Positions 965-20,129 of a stretch of 46,944 nt of DNA are shown one piece after another; position 1 is the first letter of the stretch, and every line of letters begins with the position of its first letter. The notes under the pieces are model-generated. The model was not told where the DNA came from and did no database searches. It worked only from the letters and a program-made list of their open reading frames with translations. Made by a program: the position numbers and the translations under genes. Origin of the DNA: an uncultured Desulfuromonadales bacterium (lineage in GTDB: Bacteria > Desulfobacterota > Desulfuromonadia > Geobacterales > CAIOGM01); contig CAIYUY010000167.1 in the NCBI GenBank assembly GCA_903929485.1, positions 1 to 46,944 on the forward strand, in the 5' to 3' direction.

Positions 965-2296
965 TCACCGCAAGCAGTGAAACACTCCCCTGCACCAGAG
1001 ACAGGCGCCGCAGGGAACTGTACGGATATGGCAATCCTGCTCAAACGCTTCACTCTGGACATAATCACAGGGGGCCAGAGTGCAACTGGAGCAGGCAGGG
1101 TAATCGTACGCCAACACGGAACGGCGAAAATCACTGAACTCCCGACTATTCCAGATATCCGGGATGGTCATCCCCGCCAGATTACCGAACAGCTTGGGCT
1201 GAACCTGCTGGCTCCAGCCGCCGGCATAGCAGTCAAACCGCCTCCAGAGGAAATAACAGGGGGAAATATCCCCCTGCCAGGAGACGAAGGCGCTCCCCTC
1301 TTCCACGAAGCTGCAACTTCGCTCCTCGCGAAGCGACAGCTCCGGCAGCCTCAGCTCCAGACCACTCTCCGCCGCCGCCTCCCGCGCCTGGGTAAAGACC
1401 CCCTTCACCTCCTCCAGCCGGTGATAATCCAACCTGATAAGCTTCTTTATATCCACGAGGATGCCCCGTTGGGCCGCATCCCTCTTAATCCCTTCCACCA
1501 ACTCCACAATGGCCTGCTCTTCCGGGGTCCGGGCGTACCGCAAAAAGCGGACCTGAAAATAGCGGCTGATATCAACCCCCTGTTTCTCCCCCACCCGCTT
1601 CCATTTCAGGAACAGCTCCATTGCCTCGGCGGTGCAGTCGCCAAACAACGCCTCGCCGGCATGCTGCTCGTCATAGGGGAGAAGGTGAGAGACAATGGCA
1701 AATGAGGCGCCACGGCGGGCGGCCCACCGGAGAGCCGCCGGGAGCTCGTGAAGATTGCGGCGCATGGCGACAAACTCCACCCCCACCCCTACGTCGGGAC
1801 GATGATGGCTCTTTTTTGCCCCGGCAAGGGCGCTTAAGGCCCGCTCCACCCCCTCCAGCTCCCCCCCCTGACGGAACTCCCGAAATTTTTCAGGAGATAC
1901 CGAATCCAGGGAGAAACAGATCCTGTCCACCCCGGCGGCCACCAGGGAGTGCGCCCGCTGGTTGGACATGAGGAGGCCATTGGATTGAAAACCGACCCAG
2001 CCGTTTCCAGGGAGGAGCTGTTTCCCTCTCCCGACGAACTCCTCCAGGTTTGGATGGAGCAGTGGTTCACCCACACCGTTGAGGATAAGGGCATCCAGGT
2101 GAGGAATGGTCGGCTCCAGGGAAGCAAAAAAGAGCGGGTCAAGGTCCCCTTCCTGAGCCGGACTCCCCTGCCGCTGTGTCACACACATGGCGCAGGAAAG
2201 ATTGCAGCGGGTGGTGATCTCCACAAAAAGCTTGGACGGATGGTCGCGTAACGCCGGCGGGATGATGGTAAGGGGAGAAATAATCCGACTATTCAT
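965..2296 (-). CDS. Radical SAM protein with SPASM-like C-terminus
   Basis: CNLSCAMC radical SAM motif; C-terminal Cys clusters (CSF...SPCYF, CSSCTLAPC). Start placed at MNSRI. Confidence 0.88.
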   Translation of the reverse strand: MNSRIISPLTIIPPALRDHPSKLFVEITTRCNLSCAMCVTQRQGSPAQEGDLDPLFFASLEPTIPHLDALILNGVGEPLLHPNLEEFVGRGKQLLPGNGWVGFQSNGLLMSNQRAHSLVAAGVDRICFSLDSVSPEKFREFRQGGELEGVERALSALAGAKKSHHRPDVGVGVEFVAMRRNLHELPAALRWAARRGASFAIVSHLLPYDEQHAGEALFGDCTAEAMELFLKWKRVGEKQGVDISRYFQVRFLRYARTPEEQAIVELVEGIKRDAAQRGILVDIKKLIRLDYHRLEEVKGVFTQAREAAAESGLELRLPELSLREERSCSFVEEGSAFVSWQGDISPCYFLWRRFDCYAGGWSQQVQPKLFGNLAGMTIPDIWNSREFSDFRRSVLAYDYPACSSCTLAPCDYVQSEAFEQDCHIRTVPCGACLWCRGVFHCLR

Positions 2297-3152
2297 GGGG
2301 GTTCCGTTGATGTTCCAGGAGCAGCAGCGCAATGCCCCCCAGTATGGCCACGGACGCCATTACCAGCCGGAGGGTCACGTTTTCACCCAGGAAGATGATT
2401 CCCCCCACGGCGGCAATGACCGGAACAGCCAGTTGCACTGTCCCGGCGCTGGTGACCTTCAGGCCGGGGAGGACTCTATACCATAAGGCATACCCTGCTC
2501 CGGACGCCACTCCTCCGGACAGGAGCGCATAGCAGAACCCGGCGGTATCCGGAGTGGCGTCTCCAGCTGTCATGACACTCACTGCCGCGGCAAGCGGAAC
2601 AGCCCGGAGAAAATTCCCCGCTGTAACCCTGGCAGGATCACCCGTTCCTCTCCCTCGCAGAGAATAGATACCCCAGGCAACCCCGGAGCCCAACATCATG
2701 AGAGAGCCGGAGAGTGGCGGAGCCGAGAGACCCGGCAGCAGTAACCCCACCAGACCGCCAAGGGCGACAACAAGACCCAGGAACTCTCCCCTGGACAGAC
2801 GTTCTCCTTTCCGGATACCGTGGCCGATCATCGTTATCTGGACGGCGCCAAAGAGGAGGAGCGCGCCGGTGGCCGCGGACAGAGTAGTATAGGCAAAAGA
2901 AAAACCAGCGGCATAAGCAAATAACGCGCAAGCCGACGGCCAATTCCCTCTCCCCACAACCGCGCCGTGCCCCCCGCGGGTGATGAGCCAAAGAATCACC
3001 GCGCCGGAGATCAAGCGGATCGTCGTGAAACTGGCGGCGTCAATACTGCTGTTTTTGAGAGCGACACGGCAGAGGAGTGAATTCCCTCCAAAAGCAATCA
3101 TGGCCAGTGAGGTCAAGAAAATGAGACGGGCAGATGACATCAAGCGCCTCAA
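2289..3152 (-). CDS. EamA/DMT family transporter
   Basis: 287 aa, hydrophobic TM-rich, FGGNSLLCRVALK...AASFTTIRLISGAVIL typical of EamA. Confidence 0.85.
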   Translation of the reverse strand: MRRLMSSARLIFLTSLAMIAFGGNSLLCRVALKNSSIDAASFTTIRLISGAVILWLITRGGHGAVVGRGNWPSACALFAYAAGFSFAYTTLSAATGALLLFGAVQITMIGHGIRKGERLSRGEFLGLVVALGGLVGLLLPGLSAPPLSGSLMMLGSGVAWGIYSLRGRGTGDPARVTAGNFLRAVPLAAAVSVMTAGDATPDTAGFCYALLSGGVASGAGYALWYRVLPGLKVTSAGTVQLAVPVIAAVGGIIFLGENVTLRLVMASVAILGGIALLLLEHQRNPHE

Positions 3153-4609: not shown

Positions 4610-5140
4610 TCAGAACGGCAGTTTCCCATATCCCATGAGGCCAATGGCCGGGACAAAGAGACAGGTGAAGCTGAGAATCAGAAACATCCAGGCGGCAACC
4701 TTGGCGTTGATCTTGCCGTAGGTCACTCCCGTGACGGTGAAGCAGATAACGACGAAGGTCGTACACATGAATCCCAGGTAAGGGACCACATCGATGATGC
4801 TCTTCCCGTCGGGCTTCACTCCGCCGCCCGTGAAGTAGAGAACCGCATACATGGCGCAGACAATGCCGACCACCAGGGCGCCGTTCCCCACAGTCCGCAT
4901 ATCTTCGATCCCCGTCAGGAGAACGTGAGCCGTTTGCAGGTAGAGTACGCCGAAGACAAAGAGCAGCCCGCCGGTGAAGGGGTCCTTGAAGAGCGCTGTC
5001 TGAAGAAGGGCCCCGATGACGACAAGGGTTCCCACAACAGCGGTAACGAATCCGGTGCTTTTCGCCTCGCCGGAACCGAGGAACAGCAGACCTACGGGAA
5101 CCCACATCATGCAGATCAACAGAAGCAGTGCCAACGTCAT
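4610..5140 (-). CDS. AmiS/UreI-like small integral membrane transporter
   Basis: 176 aa, about 6 TM segments; family call rests on size, TM pattern and neighbourhood (porin, DUF4242). Confidence 0.55.
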   Translation of the reverse strand: MTLALLLLICMMWVPVGLLFLGSGEAKSTGFVTAVVGTLVVIGALLQTALFKDPFTGGLLFVFGVLYLQTAHVLLTGIEDMRTVGNGALVVGIVCAMYAVLYFTGGGVKPDGKSIIDVVPYLGFMCTTFVVICFTVTGVTYGKINAKVAAWMFLILSFTCLFVPAIGLMGYGKLPF

Positions 5141-5184: not shown

Positions 5185-5457
5185 TTATTCCGCGGTGGTC
5201 GGATCGATGATAGTCCGGACTTCGTTGACGCTGTTGGCCGGGAAGCCCCCCTGCTTGGCATGCTCCAACACCATCTCCTTGTTGGGGGCGATGTAGATGC
5301 AGTAGATCTTGTCGTCGGTGACATAGCTCTGCACCCACTGGATCCGGGGACCGAGTCCCTGGAGAACGGAGCAAGACTTCTGGGATATTGCCTGAAGGTC
5401 CTGGGGAGGAATATTTCCGGCTCCGGGGAGTTCGCGTTCTATAACGTATTTTGGCAT
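5185..5457 (-). CDS. DUF4242 domain protein (SCO4226-like, possible metal binding)
   Basis: 90 aa, MPKYVIERELPGAGNIPPQDLQAISQKSCSVLQGLGPRIQWVQSYVTDDKIYCIYIAPNKEMVLEHAKQGGFP. Confidence 0.85.
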   Translation of the reverse strand: MPKYVIERELPGAGNIPPQDLQAISQKSCSVLQGLGPRIQWVQSYVTDDKIYCIYIAPNKEMVLEHAKQGGFPANSVNEVRTIIDPTTAE

Positions 5458-5545: not shown

Positions 5546-5590
5546 CAAGTGTTAACCCCTCCCCCTCGGCGGAGGAGGGGTTAACACTTG
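5546..5590 (-). repeat. Perfect 17-bp inverted repeat between porin and DUF4242 genes (no T tract)
   Basis: CAAGTGTTAACCCCTCC (5546-5562) / GGAGGGGTTAACACTTG (5574-5590), 11-nt loop. Confidence 0.9.
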
Positions 5591-5602
5591 GTGCAAAAGT
5601 TG

Positions 5603-6871
5603 TTACCAGTAGTACATGGTTCCCAGGGCGAGACTGTTTGAGTGCTGGGTGGCGGAGTCGGCCCAGGTGTTCTGGGCATAGGCGAATTCGGCGACGAACT
5701 GTATGAATTTGTTGAGATTATACACGACCATGGCGTCCACCGCCTCCTGCTTGAACATGGGGACACCATACGCTGTGTAGCTGCTCCTCTGGCTCTTGTC
5801 GTAAGCGGTCTCAATCTGCCGGTTTTGACCGTAGTTGACGCCCAGCTTCCATTCGGGGTTCAGTTGGTAGGTCGCCTGGGCAAGGAAACCGAACTGGGTC
5901 CGGTTACAACCGGAACCATCCACCGCGTTTGAGTTTGTGGCGCTTATGGCCGCCAATGTGCCGTCCTGGGCGCTGATCATGCCGAGACCTTCGCCCACAT
6001 AACTGGACGCATGGAGCTGAATCCCTCCGATACCCAGCGTTACGCCTGCATCACCACCCACCGAACGCTCGTAGCCGCCGGGGCGAAAAGTTGCGGCATC
6101 ATCGCGGGTCGCCCCCTGGTACAGGGCGGACATCCATGCTTGCAGGTTGTTGTCTTTCCCCAGGGTCGTGGCGTAGGAAATCTCCGTCTCGAAGCGCGGC
6201 ATGGGTGTCTTTGCCGTCTGAGCACTGACGTTGTAGGGTTCGCCAAGTTCGAAGGAGACTTTCAATCCGCTGAAATCGGGCGTGGTATAGCGAAGTTGAG
6301 CGCTGAAGTTTGTGTAGAGATATCCATAGCCGATATGCCCCAGCGTAGTGGTGGTGCCGGGAGCCGGAACAACCCCAGCCGTCAGGAGAGTCATGTCATT
6401 GAGGATGCTCTTCCCCTGGTAAAGATTGAGAGCACGACCGGCAAGCAGTTCCCCGTATTGTCCCTTTGCGGTATAGAAGAATTCGCGGAAGTCGATGTTG
6501 GGGCTTGTGTTGAATCTGTTCTGACCATTACCGGAGCTTGAATTCTGGATGCTGGGATAGATGCCGACTCGTACGGACGATTCCACGCCATTAACGATGG
6601 GCGCCTTGACGTTGAAGGCTATCACCGACGGCAGAAGCCCGACGGTTACTTCGTTAGCCTGATACTGGCCGGGACCGCCATTGAGAAACGATACCGACCT
6701 GGTCCCGGATGGTTTGGCGCTGGCCGACATGTAGGTATCAAATACATCCACGATACCATCGGTGCTGAGTTGCCAGCCGTTCTCCCCACCGATAACGAAG
6801 GCGGCGTTGGCCGTCCCCAAGGCCGACAGGGTCATGAGGGCGGCGCCTGCTACTGCTCTGAATCTTTTCAT
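5603..6871 (-). CDS. Outer-membrane porin
   Basis: Signal peptide MKRFRAVAGAALMTLSALGTANA; alternating beta-strand pattern; terminal aromatic ...LALGTMYYW. Confidence 0.8.
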   Translation of the reverse strand: MKRFRAVAGAALMTLSALGTANAAFVIGGENGWQLSTDGIVDVFDTYMSASAKPSGTRSVSFLNGGPGQYQANEVTVGLLPSVIAFNVKAPIVNGVESSVRVGIYPSIQNSSSGNGQNRFNTSPNIDFREFFYTAKGQYGELLAGRALNLYQGKSILNDMTLLTAGVVPAPGTTTTLGHIGYGYLYTNFSAQLRYTTPDFSGLKVSFELGEPYNVSAQTAKTPMPRFETEISYATTLGKDNNLQAWMSALYQGATRDDAATFRPGGYERSVGGDAGVTLGIGGIQLHASSYVGEGLGMISAQDGTLAAISATNSNAVDGSGCNRTQFGFLAQATYQLNPEWKLGVNYGQNRQIETAYDKSQRSSYTAYGVPMFKQEAVDAMVVYNLNKFIQFVAEFAYAQNTWADSATQHSNSLALGTMYYW

Positions 6872-7154: not shown

Positions 7155-7173
7155 CAGCAAGGTTGATGCCAAG
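7155..7173 (-). promoter_or_regulatory. Sigma54 (-24/-12) promoter facing the porin
   Basis: Minus strand CTTGGCATCAACCTTGCTG; GG-N10-GC exact. Confidence 0.8.
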
Positions 7174-7290
7174 AAGTAGAACAGTGGTTTTTTAGTTAAA
7201 AAATGAACAAATTTAAGAACTTATATAAGTATAAGGAAAAATGAGATCTTGGGTAGATACTGGGCAATAAATTATATTTACTTTTTATTT

Positions 7291-7325
7291 CAGTGTGTTA
7301 TACAGTGTGTTGCAGTATGCCACAC
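7291..7325. promoter_or_regulatory. Candidate shared activator site (UAS)
   Basis: Direct repeat CAGTGTGTT (7291-7299, 7303-7311) and GTGTG-N11-CACAC (7305-7325), about midway between two divergent sigma54 promoters. Confidence 0.45.
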
Positions 7326-7437
7326 CGTGGAGTTATTTCCCAAGTCGTCGAGTGCGACGTAAACGGCAAGAACGCTCCTCCCGTACTTCAGCCGCCAGCA
7401 ATCAACCCTGCAAAAAAATAAAAACCATGTTTGGCTA

Positions 7438-7456
7438 TTCGGCATAGGTTTTGCTA
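7438..7456 (+). promoter_or_regulatory. Sigma54 (-24/-12) promoter of first ADH operon
   Basis: TTCGGCATAGGTTTTGCTA; GG (7441-7442)-N10-GC (7453-7454). Confidence 0.8.
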
Positions 7457-7509
7457 TACTATTTCCTTTGTAAAGGGCCTCTGCTCCACAAGCGGCCAAG
7501 GAGAGCTAC

Positions 7510-8679
7510 ATGGCGGTACCTGCTCAGGATAGTAGCCTGCAACATTGCAAATTCGAAGTCCCCGAGATCATCTTCGGCAGGGGGATGTTGAAACACGTCG
7601 GCTCCTGCGCCCGTCGTCTGGGGGGGCACAAGATATTCCTGGTGAGCGATCAGGGACTGTTCAAGGCCGGGTGGGTGGACCGGGTCATGGTCAGCCTCCT
7701 GGAGGCGGGTCTCCAGTTCGTCTATTTTGACCAGATCAGCTCCAACCCCAAGGATTTTCAGGTGGAGGAAGGGGCCAGGGAGTATCTGCGACAGGGGGCG
7801 GACGTCATCGTCGGACTGGGGGGAGGGAGCGCCATGGACGCCGCCAAAGGGATCGCCATTCTGGTCTCCAATGGGGGAAGAATCTACGATTTTGAGGGAG
7901 CCAACAAGATCAATCGCCCCCTGCCGCCACTGGTTCTCTGTCCCACCACCTGCGGCACCGGCGCCGACGTTTCCCAGTTCGCCATCATCAGTGACAGCAG
8001 GCGTCGCTGCAAGATGACCATCATGAGTCGCTGCGTGGCGGCTGACATCAGCCTCACCGACCCGGACGTCCTGGAAACCCTCCCCGACGAATTCGTCGGC
8101 GCCACCGCCACCGACGCCATGAGCCACGCCGTGGAGGCGTTTTTCTCCGTGGCCGCCACCACCCTCACCGATGTCCACGCCATCCGGGCGGTGCGACTCC
8201 TCTCCCAGAGTTTTGTCCGGGGGGTGAAAGAACGACAGCGGGAAGACCTGGAAAACCTTGCCCGGGCCAGTCTCCATGCGGGTATGGCCTTTTCCAACTC
8301 GCTTTTGGGGATCGTTCATGCCCTGGCCCATCCCATCGGCGGCTACTATGACGCCAATCACGGCAGCGTCAACGCGGTCCTCCTCCCCCAGGTGGTCAGA
8401 TACGCTCTCCCCGTGGTGGAGGAAAAACTCCCGGAACTGGCCTGGGGACTTGGAGTGAGAAGCGAAGGGAGAGAAAGTGACGTCGCTGAAGCGGTGCTGG
8501 AGGCTATCGACTCCCTACTGGAAGCCGGCGGCGCCCCACGCAGCCTCCGGAGCCTGGGGGTCGTTCGTGAAGACCTTCCCGAACTGGCCACCCGGGCACT
8601 GAACGATGCCTGTATCCTCACCTCCCCCCGTCAGGCAACCAAGGAAGACCTTCTGTCGATCCTGGAGAGGGCCTACTGA
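7510..8679 (+). CDS. Iron-containing alcohol dehydrogenase
   Basis: GLGGGSAMDAAKGIA, PTTCGTGADVSQF, HALAHPIGGYYDANHG. Confidence 0.93.
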   Translation: MAVPAQDSSLQHCKFEVPEIIFGRGMLKHVGSCARRLGGHKIFLVSDQGLFKAGWVDRVMVSLLEAGLQFVYFDQISSNPKDFQVEEGAREYLRQGADVIVGLGGGSAMDAAKGIAILVSNGGRIYDFEGANKINRPLPPLVLCPTTCGTGADVSQFAIISDSRRRCKMTIMSRCVAADISLTDPDVLETLPDEFVGATATDAMSHAVEAFFSVAATTLTDVHAIRAVRLLSQSFVRGVKERQREDLENLARASLHAGMAFSNSLLGIVHALAHPIGGYYDANHGSVNAVLLPQVVRYALPVVEEKLPELAWGLGVRSEGRESDVAEAVLEAIDSLLEAGGAPRSLRSLGVVREDLPELATRALNDACILTSPRQATKEDLLSILERAY

Positions 8680-9878
8680 TGCAGGAAGTCAAACGCACCC
8701 CCATCGATGAGGGGATCATTGACCGTCTGTTGGGTCTGGACAGCTCAAAAATAGGCTTTTACTCCGACGTCAAGCAGAAGATTCAGGAGCTTGAAGCCGC
8801 CAACCTCAACCTCCGAACAAAACAGAACGAACTTCAGGCGATATTTGACGCCATCGGAGATGGGGTGGCCATCTACGACGACAACGGCTGCATCCAGTAC
8901 CGCAATCATGTCTGCCCACGCCTCTTTCCCATGGAGACCATGATCGGCTCCTCCTGCCGGTGGCTCCTCCATCCCGACCGGGAACAGCACACCCATGATG
9001 ATTGCATCGTGGCGGCGGCGTTAAACGGCGAGAGCCGCAACCTTGCCTTCACTACCTCGGAAAACGGACTCGCCCGCTATTTCGAGGCATCGGCCACCCC
9101 CATCAATGATTCGCACGGGGAACGCCGGGCATTGCTCTTTCTCCGGGAGGTGACTCAGCGACGCCTCCAGGAACTCCAGCTCATGCAGTCGGAAAAAATG
9201 GCATGTGTGGGGCTGCTGGCGGCCGGGGTAGCCCATGAGATCAACAATCCACTCACCTCCGTGGCAGGGTATGCCGAGGCGCTCATCCGACGGTTTCGAG
9301 ACGATCCGGAACTGGTGGAGGACCAACGGCTGGAAGTCTTTCACCGGTACCTGGAGGTGATCATCCGCGAATCCTACCGCTGCAAGGGGATCATCAACGG
9401 ACTTCTCACCTTCAGCCGCAAATCCGACGGCTCCACGGAGAACGTGGATATCAACAAGGTCGTGCGGGAAGTACTGGAACTGGTCCGTCCCAAGGCCGCT
9501 GCGGAAAGAGTAACCATTGAAGAGCGGCTTGCCCCGGAACTCCCCCCCATCCGGGGGGATGCGGCCGGACTCCGGCAGGTTTTCATGAATCTGATAATGA
9601 ACGCCCTCCAGGCAATTAACGGCGCCGGAGAGATCATCCTTACCAGCTTCACCCATGAAGAGAGAGTACTGGTTACGGTAAAGGACTCGGGGTGCGGCAT
9701 ACCGCAGGCGCTGCTGGATCAGATCTGGGACCCCTTTTTTACCACCAAAGCCGTCGGCCAGGGAGTCGGCCTGGGGCTGGCGGTAACCTACAATATCATC
9801 CACCGCCATGGAGGAGAAATCATCGTGGAAACCCGTGAGAATGAAGGTGCCTGTTTTACCGTGAGGTTACCGGCATGA
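8679..9878 (+). CDS. PAS sensor histidine kinase (NtrB-like)
   Basis: PAS region, HEINNPLTSVAGYAEAL H-box, HATPase motifs GLRQVFMNLIMNALQA, GQGVGLGLAV. Confidence 0.93.
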   Translation: MQEVKRTPIDEGIIDRLLGLDSSKIGFYSDVKQKIQELEAANLNLRTKQNELQAIFDAIGDGVAIYDDNGCIQYRNHVCPRLFPMETMIGSSCRWLLHPDREQHTHDDCIVAAALNGESRNLAFTTSENGLARYFEASATPINDSHGERRALLFLREVTQRRLQELQLMQSEKMACVGLLAAGVAHEINNPLTSVAGYAEALIRRFRDDPELVEDQRLEVFHRYLEVIIRESYRCKGIINGLLTFSRKSDGSTENVDINKVVREVLELVRPKAAAERVTIEERLAPELPPIRGDAAGLRQVFMNLIMNALQAINGAGEIILTSFTHEERVLVTVKDSGCGIPQALLDQIWDPFFTTKAVGQGVGLGLAVTYNIIHRHGGEIIVETRENEGACFTVRLPA

Positions 9879-11266
9879 CCGGAAATTCGGGAGGCAAGGG
9901 GATCAAGCTCCTCGTCGTCGAGGATGAGAGGCCGCTTCGGGAACTGCTCCGGGAGGAACTCTCCCGCAGCGGCTACAAGGTGGAGACCGCCGCCGACGGC
10001 ATCGAGGGGCTCGCCAAGTACGGCGTCGAGCTCTTCAATGTGGTTCTTCTGGATATCAGGATGCCGGGAATGGACGGGGTTGAGGTTCTCAGCCGGATGC
10101 GGTACGAGTCGACCTTGCCGGAGGTCATCGTCTTTACCGGCCACGGCACCATCGAGACCGCCGTGGAGTGCATCCGGCAGGGGGCCTACGATTATCTCAC
10201 CAAGCCGGTGAAGCTGGATGAACTGGAACTCGTCATCCATAAGGCCGCCGAAAAGAACCGGCTCCGCCTGGAGAACATCAACCTCAAACTGGAGGTGAGC
10301 AAATTCGAAAACCACCAGCTCGTCGGGAAAAGCTCGGCGATTCTGAAGGTTTTGGATATTGTCGCCCGGTGGGGGCGCGTGGACGAGCATGTGCTCATCA
10401 CCGGAGAAAGCGGCGCCGGCAAGGAACTGGTCGCCCGGGCGGTCCATGACGCCAGTCCCCGGCTGCACAAGCCCTTTGTGACGGTGAACTGCGGTCGGCT
10501 CAACGTTCATACCGCCGAAAGCGAACTCTTCGGTCATATGCAGGGGGCTTTCACCGGAGCGATGAAGGGACGGGCGGGGCTGTTCGAGTTGGCCGACACC
10601 GGCACCCTCTTCATGGATGAGGTCTCCGAGATGCCGCTGGACGTCCAGGTCAAACTCCTCCGGGTCCTGGAGACGAGCACCTTCCGCCGACTGGGGGGGA
10701 ATCGGGACATCAGCGTGGATGTCCGTTTCGTCTTCGCCTCCAATAAAAATCTCATGGAGTGCGTCAACCGGGGTGAGTTCCGTGAAGACCTTTACCATCG
10801 GGTCAACCTCCTCCTGGTGGATATCCCCCCTTTGAGGGAACGGAAAGAGGATGTCATCCCCCTGACCTGGTTCTTCCTCAAAACCTTCAATTCCGCGCAC
10901 AGCAACGCCTGGGAGATATCCGACGACGCAGTGGCGTCGCTGTGCGCCTACGATTGGCCGGGCAACGTGCGTGAACTGCGCAACACCATCCGGCGCGCCT
11001 GCATCCTTGCTCCGGAATCGGTCATCACCGCCGACCTTTTCCCCTTTGCCTCACCCCGACCGGCGCCTACGCCAATCCCCATGAATGTTACGCCGGTCGC
11101 CCCGGCAATGGCAACGCCATCGGCACAGCCACTTTGGGTCATGGAAAAGGCGCATATCCAACAGGTTCTGGAGCTGGTGGAGGGGAACAAGAGCAAGGCC
11201 GCCCGTATCCTGGAAATCGACAGGAAGACCCTTTACACCAAGCTGGAACGGTACGGTTTGAGTTGA
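9875..11266 (+). CDS. Sigma54-dependent response regulator (NtrC family)
   Basis: Receiver DIRMPGMDG; AAA+ GESGAGKE, GAFTGA, FMDEVSEMPLDVQ; C-terminal Fis HTH (NKSKAARILEIDRKTLYTKLERYGL). Confidence 0.96.
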   Translation: MTGNSGGKGIKLLVVEDERPLRELLREELSRSGYKVETAADGIEGLAKYGVELFNVVLLDIRMPGMDGVEVLSRMRYESTLPEVIVFTGHGTIETAVECIRQGAYDYLTKPVKLDELELVIHKAAEKNRLRLENINLKLEVSKFENHQLVGKSSAILKVLDIVARWGRVDEHVLITGESGAGKELVARAVHDASPRLHKPFVTVNCGRLNVHTAESELFGHMQGAFTGAMKGRAGLFELADTGTLFMDEVSEMPLDVQVKLLRVLETSTFRRLGGNRDISVDVRFVFASNKNLMECVNRGEFREDLYHRVNLLLVDIPPLRERKEDVIPLTWFFLKTFNSAHSNAWEISDDAVASLCAYDWPGNVRELRNTIRRACILAPESVITADLFPFASPRPAPTPIPMNVTPVAPAMATPSAQPLWVMEKAHIQQVLELVEGNKSKAARILEIDRKTLYTKLERYGLS

Positions 11267-11381
11267 GAGCCGGCAAAGGCACACTCCCCGGGATCTATAC
11301 TATGTGTATTTTTGCAACAGCTTCGCGGACGGGGTGGCGCGGCACACCCCAACTGTTTCAATTCTCTACAGCAGCACAACC

Positions 11382-12458
11382 ATGACTTCCCTGGACCTCC
11401 CTGAACTCCTCAGGCAGGAGGGGCTCTGTCATCCCGTTACCCTGACCCTCGCCGTCACCGGTCAGTGCAATCTGAACTGTTCCCACTGCTGGGTAGGAGC
11501 CGGCGCCCCCGCTTCACTCCCTCACCTGCCATCACCGGCGGCTCTTGCCATCATCCACGAATTCGCAGCTCTGGGGGGGAGGAGCATCCGCTTCACGGGG
11601 GGGGAGCTCCTCCTTCATCCCCAGTGGCTAACCTTGCTCACCTCTGCCCGACAGAGCAGGTATGACTCCATCTCCCTCCAGAGTAACGGCATCCTCTTCA
11701 CGGAGAAGAGTGCGATTGCGCTCCGTGAACTTGATTTCTCCGGAATCTCCATCCAGATAAGCCTTGACGGCGCAACAGCCGCGTCCCATGATCTGGTGCG
11801 AGGAAAAGGAGCTTTCTCAAAGGCTCTGAGGGGGATCAGCATGCTGACCAACGTCGGTCTCGGCCCCAGGGTGACCATCTTCCTCACGGAGATGCGCCAC
11901 AATCTGGAAGAGATTCCCGACCTGCTGGAACTTGCGGAAGCGCTGGGGGTCGCAGCCGTCGTCACCGGCGCCCTCGTCCGCTGCGGTCGGGCTTCTGAAC
12001 AGTCGAGGATCTCTCCTCCCGATCCGGAACAGTACCTGCGGCTGCTGGACCGGTTGGCGAACGATCAACCGTTTCGCCGTCGCTATGAAGAGATGGGGAC
12101 GACAGCAGCGGTGGAATGGCGAATGAATCCCACAGCCAGGCAGGAATGCTGCACCTTCATGAAAAACCCCTACCTGTCGCCCGACGGGGTGCTGTACCCC
12201 TGCACCCTCTGTCACGCAAAAGATTTCAGTGTCTCTGAAGTTTTCAAGAATGGACTCGTCGCCGCCTTTCGCGAAGCTGTTCCGCTCTGGTCATCCCTGA
12301 TGCAGATCAGCCGCCATAGGAGCAAAGCCCTGCCGGAGTGTCAAAACTGCCCTGAACAGGCAGCCTGCGCCGGTGGATGCATGGGACGGGCCTGGGGGAG
12401 TCACGGCAATCTCCTGACGGCGGATGACCGTTGCGAGGTGAGAAAGGCCGTAGGTTAA
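11382..12458 (+). CDS. Radical SAM/SPASM protein
   Basis: CNLNCSHCW; FTGGELLLHP; C-terminal CQNCPEQAACAGGC. Start at MTSLDLPEL assumed. Confidence 0.9.
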   Translation: MTSLDLPELLRQEGLCHPVTLTLAVTGQCNLNCSHCWVGAGAPASLPHLPSPAALAIIHEFAALGGRSIRFTGGELLLHPQWLTLLTSARQSRYDSISLQSNGILFTEKSAIALRELDFSGISIQISLDGATAASHDLVRGKGAFSKALRGISMLTNVGLGPRVTIFLTEMRHNLEEIPDLLELAEALGVAAVVTGALVRCGRASEQSRISPPDPEQYLRLLDRLANDQPFRRRYEEMGTTAAVEWRMNPTARQECCTFMKNPYLSPDGVLYPCTLCHAKDFSVSEVFKNGLVAAFREAVPLWSSLMQISRHRSKALPECQNCPEQAACAGGCMGRAWGSHGNLLTADDRCEVRKAVG

Positions 12459-12517
12459 AGCGGGGGTAATTTAGCTGAGCCACGTGGGAGAGGGAGTGAC
12501 TCTTCCTGTAAAAATGA

Positions 12518-12552
12518 AAAGAGCCGATCTGATTGCTCGAGATCGGCTCTTT
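12518..12552. terminator. Intrinsic terminator (for the Cys-rich ORF, possibly bidirectional)
   Basis: AAAGAGCCGATCT / AGATCGGCTCTTT perfect stem; T-rich tail in minus direction. Confidence 0.85.
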
Positions 12553-12576
12553 GTACCATATTTACCAATTCCAGTA

Positions 12577-12720
12577 TTATTCACTCTTTCCGGAACAGCA
12601 ATCTTCGTTGACTGCCTTGACCTGCCCTGTACTACAGCAGACCGGCTTCTGTTCAACTACTACGGTTTCTTTCTTCTCACCACATTTAGAACCTTCTTCT
12701 TTCGTTCCACATTTACACAT
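12577..12720 (-). CDS. 47-aa cysteine-rich, metallothionein-like small protein
   Basis: MCKCGTKEEGSKCGEKKETVVVEQKPVCCSTGQVKAVNEDCCSGKSE: 7 Cys of 47; own terminator. Confidence 0.65.
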   Translation of the reverse strand: MCKCGTKEEGSKCGEKKETVVVEQKPVCCSTGQVKAVNEDCCSGKSE

Positions 12721-13044
12721 GTTTCGTTTCCCCTTTTTTTCTTTGTTGCTTATGATCACCCATACTCTCATTTTTCAGCCACAAAGGCTAGTTTTAAAGC
12801 AGGGGTGAATTTGTTCTCCAGCGATCACTTGCCATCGCTGCTTGGCTCTGTCTCAGGGGAGACCGGGAAGAGACAGCCGGCCGCTTCCCGTTGAGAAAAG
12901 CCCCTCCCCCCTGATCACCGTGAACAACTGCACCATCATGGGGTGATGAGGATTTCGTAGACAACGGATCGGTCGCAGTCATCCGGAAAAATTTAACGAC
13001 TCTCGACTCCCGAATTCTTTACCATAAGCTGGACGGGGTACGAA

Positions 13045-13428
13045 CTAACGCCACTCCCATGAAGTCAAGGAGTACGGTGTTTCCTTGTTCCAAGATTGCC
13101 ACCAGACGACCGCCATCGCTGTTTTTTCCTGTCCGGCCCAAAGCACCTTCAATTTGAGACGGTAGCTCATTCCCGCGACAACTTGTTCTTCCACGCCGAG
13201 AATGGTGACCAGAGTCAACTGTTCAGTTACTGCGTTGTTCCCCTTCCGGATCACCTTTTCTTCTTCCTTGACCGCGAAGTTCGCGGCTGCGACCACCTCG
13301 GCTTTATCCGCAGCGGCAGGAGAATTAGCGCCAACGGCCTCCGGCTTTATTACCCGACAGCAGCAGGCGGACAATGAGGCCACGGAGATACAACCAAGGA
13401 TAGAGATTGAAATAAGCTGTTTTTTCAT
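13045..13428 (-). CDS. Small lipoprotein
   Basis: MKKQLISISILGCISVASLSACCC lipobox LSAC. Confidence 0.75.
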   Translation of the reverse strand: MKKQLISISILGCISVASLSACCCRVIKPEAVGANSPAAADKAEVVAAANFAVKEEEKVIRKGNNAVTEQLTLVTILGVEEQVVAGMSYRLKLKVLWAGQEKTAMAVVWWQSWNKETPYSLTSWEWR

Positions 13429-13827
13429 ATGATCCCCTTTATTTTCGCCGCCCCGAAAAGTCGCGCCATCGAAAGTGTCAACCTGTTTCGGGGTCACAAA
13501 TGCCGACTTTATCATCTCCCGGCAAGGGCTGTAAACTTTTATCTGATCCCGCCGGCTCTCTTGGTGGGAGTAACGGATGTAATCATGAATGTCCGCCTCG
13601 CCTTTCTCGTCACCTTCCCTCTCCCCACAAAGCATAAATTTCCTCATTGCTCCGGGACTCGCTCCCAGCCGACGGGGTAAAATTCCCCACTGTGTATAAT
13701 ATCCCTAGCGGCGATAAACCCATATTCACATAAAGCTGTTACATTATTCCCCGACATATCTACCCACCTCCCCCTGAAGCATACCGCGCAACGCCCATAA
13801 CATACCGTTTCCAAACCATTGTTACAA

Positions 13828-13845
13828 TTGGCATCTTCCTTGCTA
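13828..13845 (+). promoter_or_regulatory. Sigma54 (-24/-12) promoter of second ADH
   Basis: TTGGCATCTTCCTTGCTA; GG (13830-13831)-N10-GC (13842-13843). Confidence 0.85.
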
Positions 13846-13974: not shown

Positions 13975-15180
13975 ATGTCGCACAACAAAGACGTAAAACG
14001 GACCCTGAAGAACGAAAGACTGGAATACCCCATCAAGATGATGCACGCCTATCCTTCAGTAAATGTCGGCTGGGGCGCACATACCATGGTGGGCAACGAC
14101 GCCAGGGCTCTGGGGATGACCAATGCCCTCATCGTGACCACCGGCCTGAGAGGGACGGGGATTGTTGAGACCATCCAGGGGGTGCTGAAATCCGCCGGGG
14201 TCTCATCCGAAGTGTTTGACAAGGTAACTCCCAACCCCAAGGATTTTGAAGTCATGGCAGGCGCCAAAGTGCTGGCCGCCGGCAAATTCGACGGAATCAT
14301 CAGCCTGGGTGGCGGCAGTTCCCATGACGCCTGCAAGGCGATCAAACTCGTTCACAGCCACGATGGCCAGGATGTTCGGAGCTTTGAAGGAGCCTTCAAG
14401 GCCACCAAGGCCAACACGATTCCCCAACTGGCCATCAACTCCACGTCGGGTACCGGTTCGGAAATCTCCTGCTTCTCCATCATCAATCATACGGACAAAA
14501 AGTACAAGATGGCTCTCTTCGATCCCAACTGCACCCCCAGCAAATCAGTCAACGATCCGTTGATTCATCAATGCATGCCCGGCGACCTGGCCGGTTACAC
14601 CGGCATGGACGCCCTTGCCCACGGAGTTGAAGCAATCACTTCTCGTCTGGGAGTCGTCTCCGCCTACGGCCCCGGCCTGAGCGCCATCTCTCTGATTTTC
14701 GCCAACCTGCGTCAATCAGCCATGAACAGGAACAACGACAAAGCCATCGAAGCGATGGTCTGGGCGGAAATGGCGGCGGCCTACAGCTTCAATAGCGCCG
14801 GCCTGGGGCTGATCCACAGCATGGCTCATGCCTTGGGTGGAATGTATGACGCTCCCCATGGCCTCTGCAACGCCATCGGCCTTGGCCCGGTCATGAAGTT
14901 CAACCTCCCCGCCTGCCCCGAACGGTTCAAGATGATGGCGCAGGCAGCCGGTATTAACGTATGCGGCATGTCCGACATGCAAGCCGGTGACGCATTTATC
15001 AAGGCTTGCCTGGAACTGAAGGCGGATCTGGGGATCACCAAAACCTTCCGGGATCTCGGCCTGCTGGAGAAGGATATCGAAGGGCTCTCCCGTTTCTCCG
15101 TGAACGACATCTGCACCGAGGGAAACCCCACCGACACCGGCCTGCAGGATATGATCAAGATCTTCAATGAGTGCATGTAA
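13975..15180 (+). CDS. Iron-containing alcohol dehydrogenase
   Basis: SLGGGSSHDACKAIKLV, NSTSGTGSEIS, GLIHSMAHALGGMYDAPHGLCNA. Confidence 0.95.
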   Translation: MSHNKDVKRTLKNERLEYPIKMMHAYPSVNVGWGAHTMVGNDARALGMTNALIVTTGLRGTGIVETIQGVLKSAGVSSEVFDKVTPNPKDFEVMAGAKVLAAGKFDGIISLGGGSSHDACKAIKLVHSHDGQDVRSFEGAFKATKANTIPQLAINSTSGTGSEISCFSIINHTDKKYKMALFDPNCTPSKSVNDPLIHQCMPGDLAGYTGMDALAHGVEAITSRLGVVSAYGPGLSAISLIFANLRQSAMNRNNDKAIEAMVWAEMAAAYSFNSAGLGLIHSMAHALGGMYDAPHGLCNAIGLGPVMKFNLPACPERFKMMAQAAGINVCGMSDMQAGDAFIKACLELKADLGITKTFRDLGLLEKDIEGLSRFSVNDICTEGNPTDTGLQDMIKIFNECM

Positions 15181-15214
15181 GTTGCGCTGAGCCGTCAAGT
15201 TTTTCCGTAACCAT

Positions 15215-15265
15215 ATGCCGTCGGCCCCAAGGGAGAAAACCCTCAACGGGGTCGGCGGCATTATT
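15215..15265 (+). terminator. Probable terminator after second ADH
   Basis: ATGCCGTCGGCCCC ... GGGGTCGGCGGCAT followed by TATTTC. Confidence 0.65.
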
Positions 15266-15286
15266 TCATAGAGCTACGAGGCCACC

Positions 15287-16189
15287 ATGATCACGCAACA
15301 AGGGGTTAAGGATTTTCTCCAGACAGGTGGCTACATCGCCGACGACGCCATTGCCACCGCGGTTTTTCTGGCTCTCCGGATGGAAAAGCCGATCCTCATC
15401 GAAGGGCCTCCCGGTGTGGGGAAGACCGGTCTGGCCAAGGCGCTCTCGTCGGCGCTGGATTTTCCCCTGGTGAGGCTGCAATGCTACGAGGGAATTGACG
15501 AGGGAAAAGCGCTCTATGACTGGGAGTACGGCAAACAGTTGCTGTACACCCAACTGCTGCGCACCCAGTTGGACGGCTATCTCTCCGTCTCCGCCGACCT
15601 GCGCGAGGCGGTGGAGCGGTTGGCATCGGAAGAGAGCCTCTTCTTTTCCAAAAACTTTCTGGTGCAGCGCCCCATTCTCCGGAGTTTCCTGTCGGAGAAA
15701 CGCTCGTTACTCCTCATCGACGAGATCGACCGCTCCGACGACGAATTCGAGGCGCTCCTCCTGGAGTGCCTCAGCGACTTTCAGGTCTCCATCCCCGAAT
15801 TGGGGGTCATCGAAGCCAAGCGAAAGCCGTTGACGATCCTCACCAGTAACGGCACGCGGATGATCTCCGATGCTCTTCGCCGGCGCTGCCTCTATCTCTA
15901 CATCGGTTATCCCGAATTGGAGCGGGAAGTGGCCATCGTCCGGGTAAAATTCCCCGAACTCTGCGAAGTTCTGGCGGGACAGATGGTGGGATTCCTCCGG
16001 AAGGCCCGGGAGCTGAATCTGCGCAAACCACCCAGTGTCTCCGAAACCCTGGACTGGGCCCAAGTGTTGACGATCATGAAAGCCACGGAGCTTACCAGCG
16101 AGATAGTGGCCAATACGGTGGGGGTGATCGCCAAGCACCAGACGGACATCCTGAAGGTAACCGACTTGGCTCGGCAGGAATTGGGGTAG
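15287..16189 (+). CDS. MoxR-family AAA+ ATPase
   Basis: LIEGPPGVGKTGLAKAL Walker A; LLIDEIDRSDDEFEALLLE Walker B. Confidence 0.94.
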   Translation: MITQQGVKDFLQTGGYIADDAIATAVFLALRMEKPILIEGPPGVGKTGLAKALSSALDFPLVRLQCYEGIDEGKALYDWEYGKQLLYTQLLRTQLDGYLSVSADLREAVERLASEESLFFSKNFLVQRPILRSFLSEKRSLLLIDEIDRSDDEFEALLLECLSDFQVSIPELGVIEAKRKPLTILTSNGTRMISDALRRRCLYLYIGYPELEREVAIVRVKFPELCEVLAGQMVGFLRKARELNLRKPPSVSETLDWAQVLTIMKATELTSEIVANTVGVIAKHQTDILKVTDLARQELG

Positions 16190-16191
16190 CC

Positions 16192-17607
16192 ATGGAACGG
16201 ATCATAGCCCGCTTCGTTGCCGCTCTGCGTGAAAGCGGCATCCGGGTCTCCCCCGGTGAAACTCTGGATGCGGTTCAGGCCTTGGCCCTGGGGGGGATGG
16301 AAGGACGTAAATTGTCCCGGCAACTCCTCCGACTGACCATGGTGAAGAATCACAACGACATCCCCCTCTTCAATGATATCTTTAACCGTTTTTTCAGCCG
16401 CTTCAAACCTGACGAAGGGGAAGATGATCACCGTGGCCCGACTGATCTCCCCCTCGTAAACATGGAGGGGGAATTCAGCTACCTGGACCAATTGCAACAT
16501 GACGACCATGACGAACCGGGCCCACTCCTCAAATTCCATGGCGATATGGATCCTGAGGATCTGCAAGAGCTGAAAAGTCTCACGGAGATAGATCCCGATG
16601 ATTCGGACGGCCAGGAGATCATCGTGCAGATGAAGGGGTACCGGGGGAAGGCAAAGGCTCCCCGCCCCACACGGCGCTATACGCAAAACCCGCTTACCAT
16701 GGAGATAAATAAAAGCACCGGCGTCCAGCGAGGGATCACCTTTTCTCCCGAAGAGCAGGCCGCCATGCAGGATGTGGTTGCCCGGATGATGCTCCGCCTC
16801 CGTAAAGACATGCGAAGGATGAAAAACGATCAGAGCCGCGGCAAACTCCATGTCATCAAGACGATCCGAAAAAATTATCGCAATGACATGATCCCGTTCC
16901 AGGTGGCGTTGCGCCGCAAGCGTCGGGAAAAGCCGCGACTGGTGGTGCTCTGCGACGTCAGCTTTTCCGTAAGCCATGCTTCCCGTTTCATGCTGCTTCT
17001 GCTCCATACCCTGCACAACCAGATGCTGAATGTCCGGAGCTTCATCTTTAATCGGGAGGTGGCGGAGATCACCGAAATGCTGGCCAACATGCCGGTGAAC
17101 GACCTGATGGAGACCATCGACAAGGGGGATATCGTCGATCCGGACGAAAACAGCAGCTTCGGCACGGTTTTTCTCAACTTCAAGAGCAGGTATCTGGAAA
17201 ATATCAGGGGAAGGCCGGCCTTCATCATCCTGGGGGACGGCCGGAATAACTACGGTGAAGCCAATGACTGGGTGCTGGACGAACTCCGGGAAAAAGCGCG
17301 CTATATCCTCTGGCTTACCCCGGAAGAGCGCGAGACGTGGAGTCGCGGCGACTGTCTTATGGAGACCTACGGCTCCTATTGTGATAAGGTGGAGGTCGTT
17401 AAAACGGTGGAAGAGTTGGGCCAGGTGGTGGAAGAGCTGCTGAGGGACATCTACGCCGACCAAGCCCATCCCCTGGACCGAAAACTCTTGCGGGAAACCA
17501 AGGCCGCCGAAGCTGCCCAATCGTCAAATTATCAGGATTATTACACCCGTGGCTCCGGATCGGGGAGTCAACCGGCCTTTGACCCTGGCGGTCGGAGCCA
17601 CTGGTAA
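16192..17607 (+). CDS. VWA-domain (CoxE-like) protein
   Basis: VVLCDVSFSVSHASRF MIDAS-like motif; adjacent to MoxR. Confidence 0.9.
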   Translation: MERIIARFVAALRESGIRVSPGETLDAVQALALGGMEGRKLSRQLLRLTMVKNHNDIPLFNDIFNRFFSRFKPDEGEDDHRGPTDLPLVNMEGEFSYLDQLQHDDHDEPGPLLKFHGDMDPEDLQELKSLTEIDPDDSDGQEIIVQMKGYRGKAKAPRPTRRYTQNPLTMEINKSTGVQRGITFSPEEQAAMQDVVARMMLRLRKDMRRMKNDQSRGKLHVIKTIRKNYRNDMIPFQVALRRKRREKPRLVVLCDVSFSVSHASRFMLLLLHTLHNQMLNVRSFIFNREVAEITEMLANMPVNDLMETIDKGDIVDPDENSSFGTVFLNFKSRYLENIRGRPAFIILGDGRNNYGEANDWVLDELREKARYILWLTPEERETWSRGDCLMETYGSYCDKVEVVKTVEELGQVVEELLRDIYADQAHPLDRKLLRETKAAEAAQSSNYQDYYTRGSGSGSQPAFDPGGRSHW

Positions 17608-18048: not shown

Positions 18049-18213
18049 ATGAGCCGGATGCTGCTTGCCGCGGGGAGATATGTTCAAGGGGCGAAAGCCT
18101 TGAGGGAAATCGGGACGCACGCCGCCCGGTTCGCCGTGACTCCGCCCATGGTGGAGGCCGCCATCATCACCGCCGATGCCCTGGGAACGGCATACCGGAG
18201 GTCCCCGCGGTGA
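18049..18213 (+). pseudogene. Glycerol-dehydrogenase-like N-terminus fused to C-terminus, 54 aa
   Basis: Manual translation MSRMLLAAGRYVQGAKALREIGTHAARFAVTPPMVEAAIITADALGTAYRRSPR*; GRYVQG...L.EIG is GldA-like N-terminus, VTP.MVEAAI..ADALG is GldA-like C-terminus. Confidence 0.5.
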
Positions 18214-20129
18214 AAACTCTCCGTGACTTCAAGACTCACCAAGACGAACTGGAGATGAAGATTGAGGAGCTGAGAAACTCACGGGAGGAACTTGAGGCGT
18301 CCCGGAACAAGTTGGCGCTCCTCTACGATTTCGCCCCGGTGGGGTATTTCACTCTGGACCGCCACGGAGCCGTCAAAACCGTCAACCTGACCGGTATGCG
18401 CATGCTGGGGAGGGAATCAACGGAACTGGTCAGCCGGGAATTCCGGGAGTTCGTGGCTGAGGAAGAGCGATTTGTCTTCAAAACGTTTTTTCATGGGATA
18501 TTTAACGGAAACGGCAAGGAAACCTGCCGTTTGCGGCTTCTCATGAGTAATCATCAGCCGCTCTATGTCCGGATCGAGGCCATGGCCACGGAATCAGGGG
18601 AAGAGTGCCTTGTCGTACTGGTGGACATCACCGAGCGGCGTCGGGGAGAGCAGGCCCTGCTGGAAAGCGAATACAATCTGACCAAGGCTCAGGCCATGAC
18701 CCATGTGGGTTCATGGAGTTACGATCCCGCCACCGGCGAGGTTAAGGCATCCGACGAATTGCTGAAGATCATGCGGCTCACACGCAAGGAGGTAACTCCC
18801 GACGCCTTTGCCGGTGTCATCCATCCGGAAGATCATGATACCGTCATGGAGCATCTTCGCGTCGGGAGGGAAGAGGGGAGGAGTTACGAGATCGAACATC
18901 GTCTCCGCTTTGACGATGGCGGCACACGTTGGGTCTACACCATCGTGGAGGCGTCGGTGAACAGCAGCGGCAAGGTTCTCAAACTCTACGGTACGACCCA
19001 GGACATCACCCTGCGAAAGAAGGGGGAGGTGGAGCTGAGAAATAAAACCAACGAGCTGCAGGCGATCTTCGATTCCATCAGCGACGGCATCGTTGTCTAC
19101 GACCATGACGGCCTGGTTCAACACCACAATCTGATCACTCCGCAACTCTTCCCCCGGAAGCTCCTCCCTGGAAAATCCTGCCGTGAACTGTTTCATCCGG
19201 ACATTCCCCGGCACCGGGAGTGTCCGGTGGAACTGGCCATCCATGGCCGTCGTGTGGAGAGATCCCTGGTTGCCGAAGGAGAGGGGGGGAAAAGTCAATA
19301 CGTGGATGTAACCGCCACCCCTATCAGTGGCGAATTGGGAGAGAACAACCGGGCGCTCCTCTTTTTCCGGGACATCTCGGAAAAACGGCTCCAGGAGATG
19401 CGCCTGATCCAAACGGAAAAGATGTCCAGCATCGGAGTCCTGGCCACAGGGATCGCCCATGAGATCAACAATCCACTCACCTCGGTGGCCGGCTACGCGG
19501 AGGCGTTGCAGCGGCGCTTCCGTGACCAGCCCGAGCTGAAGGAAGATCCCCGGCTGGATGTCTTTCCCCACTACCTGGAGGTAATCATCCGTGAATCCTA
19601 TCGCTGCAAGGGGATCATCGACCACCTGCTCAACTTCGGCAGAAAATCCGATGGGATGAATGTCAAGGTGGAGATAAACGAGTCGCTGGGGGAGATTCTC
19701 GAACTGATCAGGAACCAGCCGGGCTATAAACGGATAAAGGTCGTCACCGGTCTGCAACGGGATCTCCCCCCGGTCCTGGGGGACCCTTCCGGACTCCGGC
19801 AACTCTGCATGAACCTGCTGATAAACGCCCATCAGGCCATCAAAGGGGCCGGCACGGTGGAGGTAACAACGGCATACACCGCGGGCGGGATGGTCACCAT
19901 CACCATCCGTGATACCGGTTGCGGCATGAAGCAGGGGATCATGGACCGGATCTGGGAACCTTTATTCACCACCAAGGAGGTGGGAAAGGGGGTAGGCCTG
20001 GGACTGGCGCTCACCTACAACATAATCAAACGTCACGGCGGCGACATCAGGGTGGAGAGTCGGGTGAACGAAGGATCGCTCTTTACGGTGACGCTGCCGG
20101 CCTCCGGGGAGGGGGGGGTCAGATTTTGA
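18210..20129 (+). CDS. PAS sensor histidine kinase, paralog of 8679..9878
   Basis: GTG start; multiple PAS; HEINNPLTSVAGYAEAL; HATPase GKGVGLGLAL. Confidence 0.93.
   Translation: MKTLRDFKTHQDELEMKIEELRNSREELEASRNKLALLYDFAPVGYFTLDRHGAVKTVNLTGMRMLGRESTELVSREFREFVAEEERFVFKTFFHGIFNGNGKETCRLRLLMSNHQPLYVRIEAMATESGEECLVVLVDITERRRGEQALLESEYNLTKAQAMTHVGSWSYDPATGEVKASDELLKIMRLTRKEVTPDAFAGVIHPEDHDTVMEHLRVGREEGRSYEIEHRLRFDDGGTRWVYTIVEASVNSSGKVLKLYGTTQDITLRKKGEVELRNKTNELQAIFDSISDGIVVYDHDGLVQHHNLITPQLFPRKLLPGKSCRELFHPDIPRHRECPVELAIHGRRVERSLVAEGEGGKSQYVDVTATPISGELGENNRALLFFRDISEKRLQEMRLIQTEKMSSIGVLATGIAHEINNPLTSVAGYAEALQRRFRDQPELKEDPRLDVFPHYLEVIIRESYRCKGIIDHLLNFGRKSDGMNVKVEINESLGEILELIRNQPGYKRIKVVTGLQRDLPPVLGDPSGLRQLCMNLLINAHQAIKGAGTVEVTTAYTAGGMVTITIRDTGCGMKQGIMDRIWEPLFTTKEVGKGVGLGLALTYNIIKRHGGDIRVESRVNEGSLFTVTLPASGEGGVRF

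Follow-up and report, generated by a model that had tools for sequence, protein, structure and literature searches.

Phosphorylated activators of the NtrC family, bound to an upstream dyad, remodel the sigma-54 polymerase through their GAFTGA loop, and ErcA and ErcS form an ethanol-oxidation regulatory network in Pseudomonas. To our knowledge, mycofactocin research has been almost confined to mycobacteria. A dehydrogenase partner, drawn from one of three families, was reported for every mycofactocin genome, and both the presence of the system in Geobacter uraniireducens and its link to PF00465 dehydrogenases were already proposed after phylogenetic profiling showed that the PF00465 paralogs of this bacterium, including Gura_3568, carry the mycofactocin signal (Haft 2011, PMC3023750; sigma is not mentioned there). 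In Mycobacterium smegmatis, growth on 1,3-propanediol and on ethanol requires the two-component system MnoSR, which is tied to the mno operon; no evident MnoR sites were found outside this operon (PMC11303327). The subject of this work is a gene cluster of an uncultured Desulfuromonadales bacterium (assembly GCA_903929485.1, contig CAIYUY010000167.1) that encodes a porin, two iron-containing alcohol dehydrogenases (ADH1 and ADH2), a PAS sensor histidine kinase and an NtrC-family response regulator; the 46,944 nucleotides analyzed are referred to as the window. Our analysis suggests, with a probability of roughly 0.78, that the kinase and the regulator jointly switch on the porin, the ADH1-kinase-regulator operon, ADH2 and the synthesis of mycofactocin so that alcohol can be oxidized anaerobically.

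The window represents a single contig of a 5.36-Mb draft genome with relatives of the Geobacteraceae/Desulfuromonadales type. When 58 genomes of the order were searched with the activator protein, 16 of them, the window's own included and with one match cut by a contig end, had an ortholog at 70% identity or more; the gene clusters around these orthologs come from four families. Within the limits of the contigs, the gene order is kept, with the genes for an AmiS-like channel and the porin on one side and, on the other, ADH1, the kinase, the regulator, a radical SAM gene when present, ADH2, madB, madC and a second histidine kinase (HK2).

Conserved promoters, a shared tandem enhancer and the regulatory pair

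The original prediction from this DNA included three promoters with the GG-N10-GC arrangement, and all three were present with the exact spacing, their positions differing by one or two bases from those first given. They precede the porin (TTGGCATCAACCTTGCT, minus strand, 7156-7172), the ADH1-kinase-regulator operon (TCGGCATAGGTTTTGCT, plus strand, 7439-7455) and ADH2 (TTGGCATCTTCCTTGCT, plus strand, 13828-13844). Their description as near-identical was fair for the -24 and -12 boxes, except that the ADH1 promoter has TCGG rather than TTGG. All three fit well the published RpoN consensus of G. sulfurreducens, TTGGCACGGTTTTTGCT (PMC2725144), and GG-N10-GC within TTGGCAY-N5-TTGCW was found at these sites as well as upstream of mftA, described below. 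An approximate -24/-12 matrix, written by ourselves from the published consensus, gave them the top three scores in the window (porin 16.1, ADH1 13.5 and ADH2 16.1 bits). In sequences of equal length generated by a first-order Markov model, 1.75 sites of at least 13 bits and 0.43 sites of at least 15 bits are expected. Judged within the window alone, the three promoters are suggestive and exceed chance only modestly.

The decisive support came from the comparison of these intergenic regions across relatives, which had been proposed as a check. Orthologous -24/-12 elements were found in 16 of 16 clusters for the porin, in 16 of 16 for ADH1 and, for ADH2, in 13 of the 13 clusters whose contig includes the region. 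Mean pairwise identity was 76% in one of the divergent promoters and 74% in the other versus 33-34% in the remaining spacer, and the divergent porin and ADH1 elements were always 249-278 bp apart. Because the orthologous places were kept while the spacer diverged, the alignments indicate that the three promoters are real and evolutionarily conserved. An AT-rich element, AAAACC-NN-TGTTT, lies directly upstream of the -24 box in all four promoters, including that of mftA. The window copies are AAAACCACTGTT for the porin (7180-7191, minus strand), AAAACCATGTTT for ADH1 (7421-7432, plus strand) and AAACCATTGTT for ADH2 (13813-13823, plus strand), and these flanking elements showed 61-68% mean pairwise identity versus 33% in the spacer. 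A one-piece pattern combining the AT-rich element and the -24/-12 boxes at fixed spacing produced zero matches because the distance between them varies by about 3 bp among promoters, and the promoters were instead aligned individually on their -24 boxes.

The promoters have in common a tandem enhancer, absent from the original prediction, composed of two 17-bp dyads, TGTGG-N7-CCACA, with centers 18 bp apart. One copy, TGTTGCAGTATGCCACACCGTGGAGTTATTTCCCA (7308-7342, 23.7 bits), is common to the porin and ADH1, and another, CGGGGTAAAATTCCCCACTGTGTATAATATCCCTA (13673-13707, 25.6 bits), is located upstream of ADH2 in a block conserved in 13 genomes; the near-invariant block in the aligned ADH2 upstream regions is TTCCCCACTGTGGATAATATCCATAG. 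These were exactly the two sites of at least 18 bits in the 46.9-kb window. The distance from the end of the enhancer to the -24 box is 135 bp for the porin, 96 bp for ADH1 and 120 bp for ADH2. Across the clusters, the enhancer has a mean pairwise identity of 64% versus 33-34% in the rest of the spacer. When a matrix built only from ADH2 regions was applied to the porin/ADH1 spacers, the mean best score was 9.2 versus 0.64 ± 0.79 in dinucleotide shuffles, with the best matches mostly at one narrow place. A single-site test for the window alone was weak (p about 0.1); the enhancer evidence draws its strength from the genome set and the tandem arrangement, not from the window alone. Over about 566 kb, comprising the window and related loci, 44 of 54 sites of at least 18 bits were 20-260 bp upstream of a sigma-54 site. 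In the window's genome, 54 sigma-54-like sites were scored for the enhancer; those of ADH2, mftA (on contig C33), the porin and ADH1 reached 23.7-25.6 bits and the next one 7.7 bits. As search patterns, a single dyad with three mismatches was too loose (422 matches) and the tandem consensus with up to two mismatches still left background, while its matches with zero or one mismatch in the cluster-bearing genomes were in or beside these clusters.

The kinase (399 amino acids, 8679-9878, plus strand) and the activator (9875-11266, plus strand) are located where they had been predicted. The kinase has PAS_4, HisKA and HATPase_c domains and, since no transmembrane segment was apparent by hydropathy (19-residue maximum 1.07), it likely senses an internal signal. 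The activator consists of a receiver, an AAA+ domain with GAFTGA and a Fis-type helix-turn-helix (HTH_8), the composition of an NtrC-family enhancer-binding protein; the label AtoC was discarded (NF008469, 406 bits versus a cut-off of 714). Fifteen full or partial orthologs share 70-91% identity with it, and the remaining matches do not exceed about 45%. The phospho-acceptor D60 is invariant among the orthologs, the recognition helix region EIDRKTLYxKLERY is almost invariant, and GAFTGA is found in the window's activator and the majority of orthologs, a few others having GAFTSA or GAYTGA instead. The kinase and regulator genes sit in the ADH1 operon, where genes overlap or touch, implying positive autoregulation. 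The proposal of one regulon formed by the porin, ADH1-kinase-regulator and ADH2 around this pair gains computational support on two counts: the same tandem enhancer is found at a fixed place at the three promoters, and activator orthologs occur in exactly the genomes with ADH2 orthologs.

The mycofactocin operon and its candidate partner dehydrogenases

The regulon had been regarded as local, a view that did not hold. When sigma-54-like sites across the genome were scanned for the enhancer, one further match was found upstream of mftA on another contig, C33. The promoter there, TTGGCATCAGCATTGCA, precedes a short open reading frame ending in VEELAIDGICGVY, the mycofactocin precursor MftA, and the operon reads mftABC-OYE-etfA-fixC-fixX-etfB. 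Its assignment to mycofactocin biosynthesis is based on scores over the cut-offs for the MftA precursor (NF040489, 46 bits, cut-off 30), the MftB chaperone (TIGR03967, 55 bits, cut-off 33) and the radical SAM protein MftC (TIGR03962, 343 bits, cut-off 265). The OYE-family mycofactocin oxidoreductase (OYE2) scored 960 bits (cut-off 793), and the genes for EtfA, FixC, FixX and EtfB are downstream of the OYE gene. The same operon with promoter and enhancer was present in all 13 genomes that could be read at this place. The enhancer matrix was never trained on mftA upstream sequences; in 12 such regions the mean tandem score was 29.7 versus -8.2 ± 1.3 in shuffles, none of 300 column-permuted matrices reached that mean, and the best tandem sites were at -161 to -163 in 12 of 12. 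A thirteenth region, from genome G027, agrees.

The distribution of the two systems is nearly the same. MftC was over the cut-off in 14 of the 58 genomes and a contig-end fragment adds a fifteenth; 15 genomes have both an activator ortholog and MftC, 42 have neither and one has the activator only (Fisher p 5e-13, a value inflated by relatedness). Five genera include genomes with and genomes without the two systems, and within them the concordance is complete. The genomes with ADH2 orthologs (at least 73% identity) were precisely the 16 with the activator, and no other match exceeded 44%. In several relatives the mft genes are on the cluster's contig, within about 10-80 kb of it or adjoining it, and in G027 they are about 1.5 kb from HK2.

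ADH1 (389 amino acids, 7510-8679, plus strand; PF00465/PF25137) is ErcA-like, and the nearest NCBIfam model to ADH2 (401 amino acids, 13975-15180, plus strand) is the NDMA-dependent methanol dehydrogenase. Both pass the PF00465 cut-off, contain the DAxxH, HxxAH and DAxHG metal-ligand motifs, and are the only PF00465 proteins in the window's genome. In the same genome no protein was over the cut-off for the mycofactocin partners TIGR03971 (SDR) or TIGR03989 (Zn-type). By Haft's rule (PMC3023750), the lack of any other PF00465, SDR or Zn-type partner leaves ADH1 and ADH2 as the candidate mycofactocin partners.

As a separate observation, the identity of ADH2 falls into two classes, 94-99% in eight relatives across four families and 73-77% in seven relatives of one family. 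MadC shows the same two classes, and the regulator has 70-77% identity outside the genus. This pattern suggests that the ADH2-MadB-MadC block (13975-17607 in the window, and its orthologs) was replaced or horizontally transferred.

Proposed mechanism and alternative explanations

In the proposed mechanism, the kinase would phosphorylate its partner NtrC-type activator, which would then bind the tandem enhancer, 96-135 bp from the -24 boxes on their upstream side, and drive the sigma-54 polymerase at the promoters of the porin, ADH1-kinase-regulator (the autoregulatory step), ADH2 and mftABC-OYE-etfA-fixC-fixX-etfB. The MadB/MadC-like genes, directly downstream of ADH2, would go with the ADH2 promoter by read-through. 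Alcohol would be taken up and then oxidized anaerobically by the iron-type dehydrogenases, the bound NAD of which would probably be re-oxidized by mycofactocin, and the electrons would leave via electron transfer flavoprotein (ETF)/FixCX to quinone. A wider proposal, to which we give even odds, is that anaerobic Geobacterales respire alcohol in a mycofactocin-dependent manner by means of a sigma-54 two-component regulon dedicated to this purpose, with entry by the porin and the AmiS-like channel, oxidation by iron-type nicotinoprotein dehydrogenases, transfer from mycofactocin to ETF/FixCX and quinone, and the cofactor made only when alcohol is present.

Several points weigh against the co-induction of these genes by the pair or against the chemistry attached to it. 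The regulon is a product of computation, the shuffle statistics overstate independence because the genomes are related, and the presence of an rpoN gene in the genome is assumed. The tandem enhancer is weak at loci L051 and L053 (14.7 and 8.8 bits), and genome G052 has the cluster with no MftC match over the cut-off. MftD, MftE and MftF had no match among the scanned operon proteins, no genome-wide search having been made. The MadB-like (NF047784, 297 bits, cut-off 475) and MadC-like (NF047783, 165 bits, cut-off 600) proteins do not reach their family cut-offs. The labels ErcA for ADH1 (NF041833, 423 bits, cut-off 550) and NDMA-dependent methanol dehydrogenase for ADH2 (TIGR04266, 304 bits, cut-off 625) were rejected for the same reason. 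The NPKD motif near the NAD site, linked by Haft to mycofactocin, is shared by the 1,3-propanediol oxidoreductase 3bfj and so is no proof of a nicotinoprotein. Finally, at least 28 proteins of the genome match the activator query, and another of them could use the enhancer.

This last point belongs to an alternative that accepts the promoters and the enhancer as real and has a different activator act on them, the neighboring kinase and regulator being only a target or regulating something else. Linkage is no proof of binding, and in one relative another kinase/activator pair adjoins mft (L229, 11727-15115). Nonetheless, the activator described here is the only one common to all clusters, the distribution of its orthologs among genomes follows that of the enhancer-bearing genes, and the near invariance of its recognition helix region also speaks for it, making a different activator unlikely in our judgment. 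It is even harder to believe that the three GG-N10-GC sites are chance matches: the expected 1.75 sites of at least 13 bits would allow it in the window alone, but position-exact conservation in about 45 orthologous promoters amid a diverged spacer, together with the common enhancer, reduces this explanation to a negligible one. A more serious alternative accepts the common regulation and holds that the dehydrogenases use free NAD, that mycofactocin serves another enzyme and that the signal is redox or carbon status, not alcohol. A soluble PAS kinase would suit a signal from inside the cell, whether redox or a metabolite, and ADH1 and ADH2 are below the nicotinoprotein equivalog cut-off. Against this, they are the sole iron-type alcohol dehydrogenases of a genome in which no SDR or Zn-type mycofactocin partner was over the cut-off, and the PF00465 paralogs of G. 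uraniireducens were tied to mycofactocin by Haft (PMC3023750). We rate this alternative as less likely than not. We therefore retain co-induction of the dehydrogenases and mycofactocin synthesis by the kinase/activator pair as the preferred explanation.

Neighboring genes and comparison with known systems

The porin (5603-6871, minus strand) has a signal peptide and a C-terminal YYW and resembles DcaP/general-porin barrels. Its AlphaFold model has about 16 strands and low confidence (pLDDT 50), and the best Foldseek matches were all porins (DcaP 6eus, E 4e-12); by this fold search the product is classed as a porin-type barrel, with the reservation that the model is a low-confidence one. A hairpin lies directly after the porin stop (5552-5591, minus strand; 20-bp stem, -39.6 kcal/mol). 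Next come a SCO4226-like small protein (5185-5457, minus strand; PF14026, 97 bits) and, two genes downstream of the porin, an AmiS/UreI-like small inner-membrane channel of 176 amino acids (4610-5140, minus strand; PF02293, 27.3 bits, cut-off 25), which is beside the porin in 16 of 16 clusters. This channel gene is the sole hint of the amide-like substrate mentioned in the original prediction.

The radical SAM gene and the MoxR/VWA pair had also been considered as possible members of the same program. The MoxR-type AAA ATPase, MadB-like (15287-16189, plus strand), and the VWA CoxE-like protein, MadC-like (16192-17607, plus strand; PF05762), fit this idea, as they come directly after ADH2 in each cluster whose contig covers the region. 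A second hairpin is located between ADH2 and madB (about 15215-15260, plus strand; -34.9 kcal/mol, without a long T run). Both hairpins are possible terminators or expression-dosing elements, and expression of MadBC may be lower because read-through must pass the strong second hairpin. A literature search for MadB/MadC with an alcohol dehydrogenase found no report. The radical SAM/SPASM gene (11304-12458, plus strand, probable ATG at 11383; PF04055) is accessory, an obligatory role being ruled out by its absence from several otherwise intact clusters. It has no enhancer of its own in the window and has one in several relatives. The conserved cluster ends with HK2, a PAS histidine kinase (18210-20129, plus strand) recognized by domain matches and synteny.

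Further observations were made around the cluster. A third tandem enhancer is found between the regulator and ADH2 in L041, L042, L045, L046, L047, L049 and L050, in several of them preceding the radical SAM gene, and a clear sigma-54 site follows it only in L043; the same interval includes MoaA genes in L045 and L046 and a MOSC gene in L045. Near the clusters in L041 (14870-19339), L043 (17775-19812) and L045 (19368-19621), sigma-54 sites of the TTGGCG type have a copy of the same enhancer about 185-203 bp upstream. In L041 and L043 these extra sites precede HdrC/HdrB-like genes, followed in L041 by HdrA and MvhD-like genes, and a heterodisulfide-reductase-like complex may be in the regulon of those relatives. 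A radical SAM/SPASM protein, putatively a metalloenzyme maturase (965-2332, minus strand; TIGR04311, 607 bits, cut-off 400), is encoded near the window's cluster, with homologs also in loci of G002 and G037. At least six other sigma-54-like sites of the window's genome (contigs C19, C36, C60, C117, C239 and C363; loci L083, L087, L088, L094, L103 and L110) have a different recurrent, enhancer-like box, TGTCGG-N5-TTTACA, about 75-155 bp upstream, which is similar to the box of the PEP-CTERM/PrsR regulon.

Regulators and promoters of these types, and the occurrence of mycofactocin in Geobacter, were already known. We did not find reports of the common enhancer, the reach of the regulon to mycofactocin synthesis or the regulatory tie to these two dehydrogenases, and a literature search for sigma-54/RpoN control of mycofactocin, outside of which most subscription papers remained, found none. 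The common promoter and enhancer provide a direct regulatory argument for which enzymes use mycofactocin in anaerobic metal reducers. The regulon predicts an inducing condition (alcohol) and an electron outlet (ETF/FixCX), the role of mycofactocin becomes testable in a cultured relative such as G. uraniireducens, and the enhancer motif enables regulon prediction in other genomes.

The locus shares with NtrC/AtoC-type activation the receiver, GAFTGA AAA+ and Fis-type helix-turn-helix architecture, a dyad enhancer about 100-170 bp upstream and -24/-12 promoters; it differs in the tandem TGTGG-N7-CCACA arrangement, in the alcohol and mycofactocin targets and in missing the AtoC cut-off. As in ErcA/ErcS, an ErcA-like iron alcohol dehydrogenase gene adjoins a sensor kinase gene, whereas here ADH1 is below the ErcA cut-off and forms one operon with an NtrC-type regulator. 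MnoSR, compared here by its description, is likewise a two-component system tied to alcohol growth, but it is not described as a sigma-54 activator (PMC11303327). The closest correspondence in cofactor synthesis is with the mycofactocin system (Haft 2011, PMC3023750; for mycobacteria, PMC6529628 and PMC11778925), of which MftA, MftB and MftC are over the cut-offs here, while in contrast to that system the operon runs on with OYE2, EtfA, FixC, FixX and EtfB behind a sigma-54 promoter and enhancer.

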